A DNA stretch of 64,000 nt from Candidatus Aminicenantota bacterium (GTDB lineage: Bacteria > Acidobacteriota > Aminicenantia > UBA2199), in assembly GCA_029938635.1 (NCBI GenBank), contig JAOZUQ010000001.1, forward strand, positions 113,568-177,567, given 5' to 3'. Both the position numbers and the translations under genes were made by a program. How positions within the stretch are numbered: position 1 is the first letter of the stretch; every line of letters begins with the position of its first letter. Below are positions 3,115 through 49,759 of the stretch, one piece after another. The notes beneath the pieces are model-generated. The model made no database searches and was not told the origin of the DNA. It saw only the letters and a list, made by a program, of their open reading frames with translations.

Positions 3115-3163
3115 CCATTTTTATTAAATTTGTTTAAAAATATTTTTTAGTGAACCTCTTCCT

Positions 3164-3877
3164 TTAAACCATGCTCAGGAAGAGGAAGGAGAAGCCGGAG
3201 ATAACAAGGGCTTTGAATATCAGGTAAATCACAGAAATAGTCATCGACTTTTTAATATCAAGTTTTGAAAAATATGCTATTCCGAGTGCAATTGCAATTG
3301 TATACCATACTGAGAAAATATCAAATCTGGATACAAATATATGGATGAATGATTTTGCATCCCCGCCTGTAAAAAAAACAGCCGGAGAAAGAATTCCCAA
3401 CAATTTAACATTAAATATGAGAGAAACCGTTTCGACCATCTTGGGAAAAACTATATCAATTAGTGACGCACCTGTAGCAATAGCAAAATAATTTATATAC
3501 AAACCTTCTGCTCCACCTATCCCGAAGAAAAGGTATGTGAAGAATGCACCAACCCCGATTACAATAAAAATGAATACCAGTTCGGGGATAAGGACGAACA
3601 TTTTCTGACCGAATGATAATGACTGGAAATCAAAATTCTGATCCTGGAAATAATCGGCCAGATTTGAATCCTGCAGCATTTCCGACATCTGATCCGCTGC
3701 ATATGGAAATGTCACAAAACTTAGTATCATAACGGTCAGCAGGATGAAAACAAAATAGGGAATCCATTTTTTGTTTTCCATTAAATTACCAAGTGAAGGG
3801 CCGGGGGTTCTGATTATTCCATCCAACCCGGAAAAAAGTGAATTAATTTTTTCAATCATTTTCTGATTATACCGCAT
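3164..3877 (-). CDS. Yip1-family integral membrane protein
   Basis: A 237-residue protein with about five hydrophobic segments. The region from PGPSLGNLMENKKWIPYFVF through the middle GGAEGLYINYFAIATGASLI stretch is the pattern of bacterial YIP1 (PF04893) proteins. Function is unknown in bacteria. It stands alone between the tetR operon and ygeY, facing away from ygeY. No good Shine-Dalgarno is visible before the ATG. Confidence 0.65.
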   Translation of the reverse strand: MRYNQKMIEKINSLFSGLDGIIRTPGPSLGNLMENKKWIPYFVFILLTVMILSFVTFPYAADQMSEMLQDSNLADYFQDQNFDFQSLSFGQKMFVLIPELVFIFIVIGVGAFFTYLFFGIGGAEGLYINYFAIATGASLIDIVFPKMVETVSLIFNVKLLGILSPAVFFTGGDAKSFIHIFVSRFDIFSVWYTIAIALGIAYFSKLDIKKSMTISVIYLIFKALVISGFSFLFLSMV

Positions 3878-15590: not shown

Positions 15591-15763
15591 GGGGACGGTT
15601 CCATTTTTGTGTACAATATATTACAGGCGTAGCCATCCATCGGCTGTTGCGGCCACCTTGTATGTTAGATTATTAAATTAGTTTTACTTAATTTAATAGC
15701 TTGGGGCCGCTGATAATATCGAAAGCCAAAACTGAGTTGTCTATAAAAAAGAGAACCGTCCCC
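15591..15763. repeat. region bracketed by an 11 bp inverted repeat GGGGACGGTTC
   Basis: GGGGACGGTTC at 15591-15601 and its exact complement GAACCGTCCCC at 15753-15763 bracket 151 bp containing foldback repeat copy A. Just beyond each arm, on the right-hand side, are similar sequences (TTGTGTACAATAT and TATGTAGACAATAT). The motif looks like the end of a small non-autonomous mobile element. No transposase gene is present. This is part of the 15503-15824 gene-free stretch. Confidence 0.5.
15626..15731 (+). repeat. foldback repeat family 1, copy A (variant centre)
   Basis: Shares with copies B and C the left end GGCGTAGCCATCCATC, the AATATCG core and the right end GAAAGCCAAAA. Its centre differs: nested stems GCGGCC/GGCCGC (15649-15654 with 15705-15710) and ATTAAATTA/TAATTTAAT (15672-15680 with 15689-15697). 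The conserved loop is ATAATAT closed by G-C. It lies between the nik operon and tRNA-Leu. Confidence 0.7.
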
Positions 15764-25383: not shown

Positions 25384-25397
25384 TAAAATAGGATCAG

Positions 25398-25512
25398 CCG
25401 TGGACATGTATTGCTTTTACGGGACTGGCAGCCTGAGTCCGTCAATATCGGACGGAAGGCGGGCGTCCAGAAAAATACCAGCAGGATTTTGCGGTAGTAA
25501 AAGTAAATACGG
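25398..25512 (+). repeat. foldback repeat family 2, copy D
   Basis: 115 nt element. The right end GCGGTAGTAAAAGTAAATACGG and the left part GTATTGCTTTTACGGG are inverted copies, and both match the ends of copy E at 49543-49653. The centre hairpin is GTCCG-TCAATAT-CGGAC, with the loop ending in AATAT that is also seen in the other four copies. It lies in the 258 bp between galE and the propeller gene; no gene is seen there. Confidence 0.65.
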
Positions 25513-25559
25513 CCAGAGGCATATCTGAACCCCTTGAACCAACGTTTACAGTGGAAATA

Positions 25560-46865: not shown

Positions 46866-47038
46866 CCGGACTATAAACTCATCCAATTTATTTTAAAATG
46901 TAAAATACATCAACTTTAAACATAATGCAACTCAAAAAATAAAAAAAATTTTTCTGATCCTGCTACTCAATAGCAAAACACCGAAACGCCACATCTTGGC
47001 AACCAAAATGAGTGATATTTATTTAGAAGAAAGATTAA
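46866..47038. other. AT-rich intergenic stretch
   Basis: With the promoter above and repeat B below this makes up the 414 bp gap between the DUF3606-type gene and the SDR gene. Very AT-rich. I see no gene or RNA here. ATATTTATTT occurs at 47015-47024 and again at 47171-47180 on the far side of repeat B, possibly a duplicated target site. Confidence 0.4.
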
Positions 47039-47170
47039 GGCGTAGCCATCTATCTGCACTCGTGGGCCTGGAGGGGTGACTCGCTAATATCGAGAACCCC
47101 GAGGCCGGGCAGCATAGCCGTATGAGAGCATACGGCGCGGGAGCGAAGTAGATGATGGCGAAAGCCAAAA
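47039..47170 (+). repeat. foldback repeat family 1, copy B
   Basis: 132 nt. Ends GGCGTAGCCATCTATC and GATGATGGCGAAAGCC are imperfect inverted copies. Inside are a stem GGGGT..CTCG-CTAATAT-CGAG.ACCCC and a perfect 8 bp hairpin GCCGTATG-AGAG-CATACGGC. The same layout occurs in copy C, with compensating base changes. Confidence 0.78.
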
Positions 47171-47179
47171 ATATTTATT

Positions 47180-47878
47180 TTATTTAAAGAATATTTTCAG
47201 ATTAAGCATCATCTTACGAAATTTAATAAAAGGGATCACAATAGCCGGGGACGAATATCTGGCAGGTTTTTTCTTCATAGATTTCATAATATGTTTTACA
47301 GCTTTTTTAACCGGCATTATGAAAGGTTTCACATCACCCTTTGCCATCTTCGTATTAACAAAGCCGAACCGGACATTAGTTATCTTCACAGGAGTGTCTT
47401 CCAATGCAAGGGCCATACTTTCCAGATAGCTGGTAAACCCTGCCTTCGATGCATGATAGGCCGGACTGTCATACGAGTGCATCTCATCTGCAAAACTTGA
47501 AAGGCCTATAAAATGGCCTTTGCCATTCTCTTCCATCGCCGGGATCACAACAGAGACAGTTCTCACCATCCCCATCAAATTTATATCAAGGGTCTTGATA
47601 TCCATATCCATATCATCCAGATCCAGTAATTCTCCTATCCCCGGACAATAGATACAAAGGTCAGGCGGGCCTTCTTTCTTAACTATTTTTTTCAACTTGA
47701 TTACATATTCATTATCGGTAACATCACACACAATATGATTGTAGGATGAATTTTTGACTGGTGATCTGCTCCTTGAAAATCCATTGACTATCCATCCATC
47801 TTGTAATAATTTTTTGGTAATAGCCAGCCCGATACCATCCGAATTCCCGATAATTATTGCCTTTCTATTCATAAACAT
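47180..47878 (-). CDS. short-chain dehydrogenase/reductase
   Basis: A 232-residue classical SDR. NAD(P) loop IIGNSDGIGLAITKK (an N-S variant of TGxxxGIG), NLMGMVRTV region, catalytic Ser in IGLSSFADE and YxxxK in YHASKAGF (Tyr about 142). Substrate unknown. The second ATG (47872) fits the GAGGG ribosome site better than the first. Followed upstream by the DinB gene 10 bp away, probably one operon. Confidence 0.88.
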   Translation of the reverse strand: MFMNRKAIIIGNSDGIGLAITKKLLQDGWIVNGFSRSRSPVKNSSYNHIVCDVTDNEYVIKLKKIVKKEGPPDLCIYCPGIGELLDLDDMDMDIKTLDINLMGMVRTVSVVIPAMEENGKGHFIGLSSFADEMHSYDSPAYHASKAGFTSYLESMALALEDTPVKITNVRFGFVNTKMAKGDVKPFIMPVKKAVKHIMKSMKKKPARYSSPAIVIPFIKFRKMMLNLKIFFK

Positions 47879-47888
47879 CCCTCAACTT

Positions 47889-48398
47889 TTACCATTTTCC
47901 TGCATAGGATAATGAATTGCCTGACAGGTGTTTATGATAATTAAATTTAAGGCCGAGTATCTGTCTCAAATGAAGATAATCGTGGGCAAGCCAGTTGGAG
48001 AGGAACATCTTCGCTGTCATTTTTCCGAACACAGGGTGGTCATGTGCGTTATCCCATGAGGGATTTACTAAACTACGTATCCATTCGATCGACCATTCTC
48101 TCTCCATCAGAAATTTTTCCACCGTGTTATTAAAGTCCTGTTCAATATATTTTCTATCTGCTACCCATCCCGGGGGATCGATCGGGCTTAGTGACTTTTC
48201 CGGATCTTCCATTACCGATTTTATTCTTGCTCTGAAATCTTCCTTCTCCTCATCATAAAGATGGCAGGCCACCTCCAGGAGGCACCATTTCCCGGGTTCA
48301 GGTTTCCACAAATATTCTTCTCTGGTCAATCCGGAAAAAAGTTTTTTGAAAATATCCTTGTTCATAGAAAATTCATCAACAATTCTTACTATGTCCAT
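47889..48398 (-). CDS. DinB-superfamily protein
   Basis: A 169-residue four-helix protein. Metal-binding histidine pattern of the DinB/YfiT family: ACHLYDEEKEDF (about 46) and WLAHDYLHLRQI (about 138). KWCLLEVACHL is the typical WSxxEVxxHL segment. These enzymes include bacillithiol/mycothiol transferases and maleylpyruvate isomerase-like proteins; the substrate here is unknown. Confidence 0.85.
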   Translation of the reverse strand: MDIVRIVDEFSMNKDIFKKLFSGLTREEYLWKPEPGKWCLLEVACHLYDEEKEDFRARIKSVMEDPEKSLSPIDPPGWVADRKYIEQDFNNTVEKFLMEREWSIEWIRSLVNPSWDNAHDHPVFGKMTAKMFLSNWLAHDYLHLRQILGLKFNYHKHLSGNSLSYAGKW

Positions 48399-48428
48399 TA
48401 GGCTTTTCCCCTTTTTCAGGTGATAAAT

Positions 48429-49181
48429 CTATTTCTTTGTCTTGATATAAATATGTTTTATATGTCTCTTCCCGCTGTCTCTTTCATCAACAAGAAAATA
48501 TTTTTTTAAAGATTTTATCAATGGTGTCAATTTCGAGAAGCCATAATTCCTGGGGTCAAAATCAGGTTTCTTCTTAATAATCAGGGAACCAACCTCGGCT
48601 AAAAATGCCCACCCGTCATCATCAGCTATATCATCAACTGAAGAAACGATTAATTGAATAAATTTATTATCTATCGGCTCTACTTCATCTCCCTGTGAAG
48701 GTGCTGTCTTTGTAGAAGTTTGCTGTTTGCTCCCCTTTTTACGACTGATTATTTCAATATAAATAAACTTATCACATGCCACTATGAAAGGCTTCGGAGT
48801 CTTTTTTTCACCTATCCCGATCACGACCTTCCCCGATTCTCTTAACCTTGTTGCCAGTCTTGTGAAATCACTGTCACTTGAGACAAGGCAGAATCCATCC
48901 ACTTTTTGACTATGCAGAATATCCATTGCATCAATTATCATTGCAGAGTCGGTTGCATTTTTCCCGACCGTATAACTATATTGCTGGATCGGAGTTATCG
49001 CATGCTCAAGTAGTGATTTTTTCCAGCCCGAAACTGTCGGCTTCGTCCAGTCGCCATATATCCTTTTAATCGTCGGCACTCCCAATTTTGCGATCTCATC
49101 AAGCATCTCTTTTATATTTGAATACGGTATATTATCGGCATCAATAAGTACTGCCAAGTTTAAATCATTTTTTTCTCTCAT
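48429..49181 (-). CDS. NYN-domain (LabA/DUF88-like) nuclease with LOTUS/OST-HTH domain
   Basis: A 250-residue protein. NYN/PIN-like domain residues about 5-140: LAVLIDADNIPY, GKNATDSAMIIDAMD and LVSSDSDFTRLATRLRESG hold the acidic metal-binding residues (D14, D16, D81, D103/D105 region). The C-terminal part (about 170-245: IDNKFIQLIVSSVDDIADDDGW, YGFSKLTPLIKSL) is an OST-HTH/LOTUS RNA-binding domain. This pair suggests an RNA-processing nuclease. AAGGGGG precedes the ATG. Confidence 0.88.
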   Translation of the reverse strand: MREKNDLNLAVLIDADNIPYSNIKEMLDEIAKLGVPTIKRIYGDWTKPTVSGWKKSLLEHAITPIQQYSYTVGKNATDSAMIIDAMDILHSQKVDGFCLVSSDSDFTRLATRLRESGKVVIGIGEKKTPKPFIVACDKFIYIEIISRKKGSKQQTSTKTAPSQGDEVEPIDNKFIQLIVSSVDDIADDDGWAFLAEVGSLIIKKKPDFDPRNYGFSKLTPLIKSLKKYFLVDERDSGKRHIKHIYIKTKK

Positions 49182-49354
49182 ATTATCCCCCTTACTGTAA
49201 CTAAATAGTAGATCAATTACACAAATATGATATCACATTCAAATGATTTATTGTTGATTCGGCTTTCATAAATAACTGTGTATTATTTATCTGTGAAATA
49301 GTGGCTTTTCCCGTAATTACTTTTGGAGTTAAGGAATTTACAAATATCATTCAG

Positions 49355-49487
49355 TTTTGGCTTTCGCCATCATCCACATCGCTCCGCTACGGATATTCTC
49401 ATCCGCTTAACGCTGCTTGTCCCCGGGGTGATCGATATTAACGAGTCACCCCTGAGGTGCCCGCTTATGCAGATGGATGGCTACGCC
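49355..49487 (-). repeat. foldback repeat family 1, copy C
   Basis: 133 nt, inverted relative to copies A and B. Read on the minus strand it begins GGCGTAGCCATCCATCTGC and ends GATGATGGCGAAAGCC. Its main stem GGGGTGA.TCG-TTAATAT-CGA.TCACCCC and the second hairpin GGAT-GAGAAT-ATCC differ from copy B in sequence but keep pairing. Confidence 0.78.
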
Positions 49488-49542
49488 TGAAACTCCCTGC
49501 TGGCAAAAACCATTTCTTTTATTCCCAAGACAAGTGGCGCTT

Positions 49543-49653
49543 CCGTGTTTTACTTTTGCGGGGCCAAATCCGAAGTCTCGCTAATATCGAACTGAGGATT
49601 TTCGCCCAGCGAAAAATGATAAGCATTTTTGCGGTAGCCAAAAGTAATTACGG
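49543..49653 (+). repeat. foldback repeat family 2, copy E
   Basis: 111 nt. Ends CCGTGTTTTACTTTTG and CCAAAAGTAATTACGG are inverted copies. The centre has TCG-CTAATAT-CGA. Related to copy D at 25398-25512 by both ends and by GCGGTAG near the right end. It forms the right half of the 49301-49663 element. Confidence 0.68.
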
Positions 49654-49759
49654 AAAAAGCCACGCAAACTAAATCGCAGTTGTGAATGAACAAAATGAAA
49701 AAATTTAGACTTAGAAATAAAAAACGATTATTATATAAGAATGAAGGATAATGTAACAA

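Follow-up and report, generated by a model that had tools for sequence, protein, structure and literature searches.

The dispersed palindromic repeats F1 and F2 are probably non-autonomous mobile foldbacks, MITE-like or REPIN-like, with a core that is conserved in shape within one Aminicenantes lineage. A core of ~126 nt would adopt a three-way junction when one strand folds, and would have spread through intergenic DNA in units that resemble MITEs or REPINs, frequently nested within other palindromes. A mobilising enzyme supplied in trans would recognise the folded single strand, as HUH/Y1 transposases recognise hairpins, and selection would then act on the shape. The single-strand recognition step, taken by itself, is less certain. 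Sequence is the usual basis on which short bacterial repeats are detected and grouped. Since one covariance model links the repeats of several genera with little stem sequence in common, such families may extend further than sequence searches reveal. A Y-shaped, shape-conserved repeat is not described in the literature searched, whose coverage leaves out most subscription journals.

In the window, that is the whole stretch of 64,000 nt analysed here, two full Y-fold foldbacks of F1 were located, copy B at 47039–47166 (+) and copy C at 49359–49487 (−). The sequence-only reading had already recognised both, with common ends and two internal hairpins of differing sequence, which agrees with our analysis; its ends at 47170 and 49355 take in four flanking bases each. 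Copy A (15626–15727, +), for which an end at 15731 had been given, is real as well but is a shortened and rearranged F1 derivative. It retains ~30 nt from the left side of F1 and a 3' remnant, and its replaced arm recurs at L036/L084. It is nested in an 18-bp inverted repeat, GGGGACGGTTC...GAACCGTCCCC, whose left arm (15591–15608, +) and right arm (15746–15763, −) belong to an enclosing GGGGACGGTTCC palindrome of TIRtron/REPIN-like type. Two full F2 elements, with the fold of F1 and different stems, occur at 25397–25520 (+) and, adjoining copy C, at 49536–49661 (+); they were missed by the earlier reading or listed elsewhere in it. An F2 right-end fragment (49301–49326, −) and the stretch 49638–49663 are inverted repeats of 26 nt on the two sides of copy C. 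The CAAATATCATTC motif at 49341–49352 (+) is the boundary of many modules in these islands, and a probable F2 left-end remnant (CACCGAAACGCCAC; compare CACGGAAGCGCCAC beside other F1 copies) was recognised by eye at 46979–46992 (−). Between the two full F1 copies, positions 48432–49181 encode a protein with NYN and OST-HTH/LOTUS domains, for which no link to the repeats is shown.

Further genomic copies, whose absence had been named beforehand as a refutation, were obtained by BLAST with copy B over the 3.05 Mb and 137 contigs of the genome. The search returned 12 full F1 copies of ~128–130 nt (best E 5.7e-62, weakest full copy 1.7e-20) together with roughly six long fragments; the genomes used are draft MAGs in which copies often break contigs, so that copy counts are lower bounds. 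Two subfamilies can be distinguished, types B (CCTGGAGGGGTGACTCG) and C (CACCTCAGGGGTGACTCG). A covariance model built from the 12 copies (R1) also scored sites of 124–127 nt with quite different stems, and these constitute F2 (~126 nt). The topologies of F1 and F2 were predicted independently, each from its own alignment, and are the same: the outermost stem of 3 bp is followed by an internal loop and a long stem, which leads to a three-way junction from which arms 1 and 2 branch. The loop of arm 1 mostly reads YTCG-NYAATAT-CGA in both families. The extreme ends of F2 vary in a paired fashion (GGC/GCC, GCC/GGC, ACC/GGT), and some F2 copies carry F1-like ends (L054: GGCGTAGCCATG...CATGGCGAAAGCC). 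In the window genome the cores form a mosaic with each other, with the CAAATATCATTC motif and with a third palindrome, F3. This module has CAAATATCATTC/GAATGATATTTG ends and commonly lies beside F1 (L057:6301–6492, L064:3755–3930, L073). An exact-end pattern search of the same genome gave no match, the spacer of the pattern being too short for full copies, and the F2 core found no match in viral contigs.

That the fold is kept through paired changes, as the sequence-only reading proposed from copies B and C, is supported in both families; a lack of covariation, its other refuting condition, was not observed in the comparison with shuffles. Two-sided changes affect three pairs in F1 (6 cells compared to 1.7 in shuffles) and nine pairs in F2 (28 cells compared to 9.2). 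The covariation score of F2 amounts to 0.214 against 0.129 after shuffling, and slid partners reach at most 0.056. For F1, F2 and F5, a related family of other genera described below, two-sided changes were counted jointly in 28 of 36 pairs (277 cells, 89 in shuffles), a somewhat favourable figure since the alignment was fitted to the model. In a fourth family, F6, its own MAFFT alignment exhibits, for example, A-U to U-A changes in arm 2 and G-C to A-U changes in arm 1. As single-stranded DNA, the forward strands of the window copies fold better than shuffles (z −2.3 to −5.1).

In three of the four families one and the same strand folds better. Stability is greater for the forward strand in 12 of 12 F1, 17 of 17 F2 and 25 of 27 F6 copies; the copies are not independent, but the three families agree. 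With helices called on the forward strand, the numbers of G-U and A-C pairs are 25:1 (F1), 45:4 (F2) and 109:3 (F6), ratios that are inflated by this choice of strand. Calling helices on both strands gave 27:7 for F1, 26:12 for F2 and 6:4 for F5. F5 is without strand preference, the forward strand being more stable in five of nine cores. The preference makes a single-strand mechanism testable.

The search for related folds was extended to other genomes. The window genome belongs to Candidatus Aminicenantes, as its named congeners JAGLQR010000107.1 and DBOL01000036.1 show. Over 60 relatives the R1 model detected F1 and F2 in the same genus only. A covariance model of F2, run over 142 genomes of the class (R2), revealed 21 matches in G015 and three in G019, which belong to other genera of the family. 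These sites represent F5, with a core of 126 nt, the loop CTCGCCAATATCGAA, and stems that differ from those of F1 and F2. A further match of the F2 model in G050 (E 0.002) lacks the fold and was taken as chance. A joint covariance model (R3), applied to a phylum-wide sample of 396 genomes, scored in no lineage other than the genus of the window genome and G003, which is a fourth genus. G003 contains F6 in 29 near-full copies, which lack the apical AATAT loop; some of them lie inside longer units with TAGTAC-type ends and others do not. Related three-way folds are predicted for F5 and F6, and on the evidence of the joint model F6 appears to be homologous to F1 and F2. The Y-shaped fold is kept in at least four genera while the sequence is largely replaced. 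This constancy suggests that whatever moves or uses the element reads its shape more than its letters.

F1 and F2 are dispersed and are gained and lost between congeners. The coding sequence flanking 31 islands was sought in the congeneric genomes G001 and G002 and mostly located, and the orthologous sites proved to be near-precisely empty, element-free, or occupied by different palindromes, which is the basis for this statement. The island of copy C and its adjoining F2 is absent from G002 (L125), where the flanks are 95% and 89% identical and a short similar stretch remains. At the site of copy A (orthologous sites L115 and L130 were compared), G002 holds a full F1 within a palindrome and G001 the palindrome without F1, the window genome (G000) having the shortened copy. 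At other sites GGGGACGGTTCC or GGGGACGGTGC palindromes occupy the position in G001 or G002 where F1 or F2 stands in the window genome. Presence and absence among close relatives, a property by which MITEs are recognised, was observed. In the comparison of filled and empty sites, no target duplication of F1 or F2 was seen by eye. F6 showed no consistent duplication, with a few 7-bp candidates (L238 ACACCAT, L257 ATACATA, L255 CAAACTA). IS200/IS605-like elements move as single-stranded DNA and leave no target duplication; the strand-specific fold, and duplications neither found for F1/F2 nor consistent in F6, bear on such movement only indirectly.

The F5 core of G015 and G019 is carried in a 204-nt unit with the inverted ends CCAAAATCCACCACC/GATGGTGAATTAAGG. 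An exact 4-bp target duplication was found in 7 of the 18 F5 units of all lengths that retain both ends (0.07 expected). Variants range from 67 to 264 nt; their ends are kept, and arms are lost, replaced or added. With a threshold of at least 9 of 12 matches, 19 of 61 F5 ends have a predicted sigma70 promoter with its −35 box beginning at a distance of exactly 13 bp, so that the element lies upstream of it (examples at L155, L158, L162, L171, L218 and L227), and no other offset up to 44 exceeds 2 in either set of ends. At three offsets 20 promoters were observed compared to about 1 in shuffled flanks; this contrast gauges the strength of the effect and is no independent replication, since the offset was noticed before testing. 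The placement points to a promoter-directed insertion preference, guided by promoter-bound RNA polymerase or by the promoter DNA. At the CAAATATCATTC ends in the window genome there is no fixed distance to promoters. From its inverted ends and 4-bp duplications, the final insertion of F5 is probably carried out by a DDE-type enzyme; the IS1380 family has CC ends and 4–5-bp duplications. In that case the core may serve its carrier as cargo or as a structure for binding.

These features of F5 are also what an ordinary MITE would present. Here a DDE transposase would move the carriers via their inverted ends, with the Y core as a passenger; quasi-palindrome correction would maintain its palindromes, and no selection would act on one strand. 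The inverted ends with 4-bp duplications, the length variants with constant ends and the missing strand preference of F5 agree with this, and template switching between arms, a known source of two-sided changes, would account for those as well. Under such correction, however, mismatches and internal loops should disappear; F1, F2 and F6 nevertheless retain an unpaired internal loop next to the outermost stem and a core length of about 122–130 nt. Nor does correction explain why G-U pairs are in excess on one strand in three families. Altogether we regard a simple MITE origin as rather unlikely. The mobile foldback with a shape-conserved core, which we prefer, has F5 weighing against it in turn: the family is without strand preference, and the target duplications suggest a double-strand mechanism. 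Further points against it are that no enzyme with matching ends turned up, that target duplications are missing for F1/F2 and inconsistent for F6, that F6 lacks the AATAT loop and is linked to F1/F2 through the joint model, and that the G-U excess shrinks when helices are called on both strands. We put forward only tentatively the further proposal that the Y-folded single strand is the unit read by a trans-acting enzyme, that the fold is inherited across genera with nearly all paired positions free to change, and that unrelated carriers pick up the core, namely GGGGACGG palindromes, CAAATATCATTC units and, in F5, a MITE with 4-bp duplications that lies 13 bp upstream of promoters.

Similarities to known MITEs of bacteria (Correia, ERIC, RUP; review PMC10969869) are the small size, the non-autonomous, intergenic and foldback character, and in F5 the inverted ends with a short target duplication. 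The known ones are grouped by sequence, whereas here the fold is kept, the stems are replaced, and F1, F2 and F6 prefer one strand. In the fragmented MAGs no parent transposon with the same ends was seen. Integron attC sites are of variable sequence and conserved foldback shape, with one functional strand. F1 and F2 share the variable sequence and the conserved foldback shape; unlike attC sites they have no GTTRRRY/RYYYAAC R-box ends (alignment ends read by eye) and no cassettes, and they form a three-way junction.

A RAYT origin, already considered in the sequence-only reading, would make F1 and F2 REPINs of resident transposases. Its statement that the window is without a transposase holds for the Y1 type, all four Y1_Tnp genes of the genome being located on other contigs. 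They are RAYT-like ORFs of ~292–309 aa with Y1_Tnp (PF01797), and GGGGACGG/GACGG-type ends lie near at least three of the four, as in TIRtrons. F1 or F1 with F2 occurs within GGGGACGG-type palindromes at copy A, L115 and L052, so these palindromes can carry F1. Both the presence of the genes and this nesting speak for such an origin. Against it, the Y1 genes go with GGGGACGG/GACGG ends, from which the F1/F2 ends differ, and most F1 and F2 copies are without surrounding GGGGACGG arms. Ends of F1/F2 type were absent within 1.5 kb of the four Y1 genes, and none of these candidates, the only ones tested, has matching ends. The unpaired GTAG/CGTC tag of a REP hairpin was not found either, the outermost stem of F1/F2 being GGC..GCC with GTAG-like letters internal only. 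We therefore consider it improbable that the resident Y1 enzymes account for these repeats.

Compared to REP, BIME and REPIN sequences with their RAYTs (PMC3116915, PMC2817692), F1 and F2 are likewise dispersed intergenic palindromes in mosaics, with imperfect hairpins, in a genome containing a Y1 (IS200-like) gene family. They differ in their core, which is ~126 nt long and built around a three-way junction where REP-type sequences have one or two hairpins of ~20–40 nt, in ends unlike those at the Y1 genes of the genome, and in a shape kept across genera with differing sequence. TIRtrons/TIRYT have GGGGWSAS ends (PMC3733652), and the host genome has such Y1 genes with GGGGACGG-type ends together with solo GGGGACGG palindromes. 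F1 and F2 have other ends and can sit within such palindromes without being the palindromes; REP dimers nested inside longer palindromes are documented in other species (PMC3733652). RAYT-like Y1 genes with GGGGACGG/GACGG-type ends were recorded at L089 (8087, 9024, 10287), L067 (7963, 8929), L090 (12390) and L091, and solo palindromes of this type at orthologous intergenic sites of G001 and G002.

None of the 31 islands lies inside an ORF. For 27 of them both neighbouring genes are called, and these are divergent at 11 islands, tandem at 13 and convergent at 3. A transcribed structured RNA, likewise suggested before, is quite unlikely; selection would then act on the element as a UTR, a terminator, an sRNA or an RNase III site. 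In its favour are the strand-specific fold, the G-U pairs and the many islands between divergent genes, a context in which promoters are to be expected. Against it, F1, F2, F5 and F6 copies are not co-oriented with flanking genes (co:anti in tandem contexts 1:2 for F1, 2:7 for F2, 5:9 for F6 and 1:3 for F5), convergent genes flank only 3 of 27 islands, unlike terminators, and Rfam at the gathering threshold returned nothing but a tRNA in the window. The orientation of neighbouring genes also leaves an mRNA element unsupported.

Some minor repeats accompany these families. At L012 (C60 start), L014 (C67 end) and L016 (C12 start), F1 is interrupted at the contig edge by an insert that is not assembled; this insert starts with AACGATTTTGCCTAAGG and ends with GAATGAGACTGTA. 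A search of the genome gave no assembled copy elsewhere; perhaps the insert is a multicopy element that targets F1. Another repeat, at L083:17207–17388, has a perfect 20-bp inverted repeat, ATGAGCCAGTTGCATAATTA, with arms 142 nt apart and recurs elsewhere in the genome. A dispersed repeat rich in TTCGGATTTCGTGCTTCGGG occurs at L059:15419–15573 and at L078:2079–2210 and 3157–3412.
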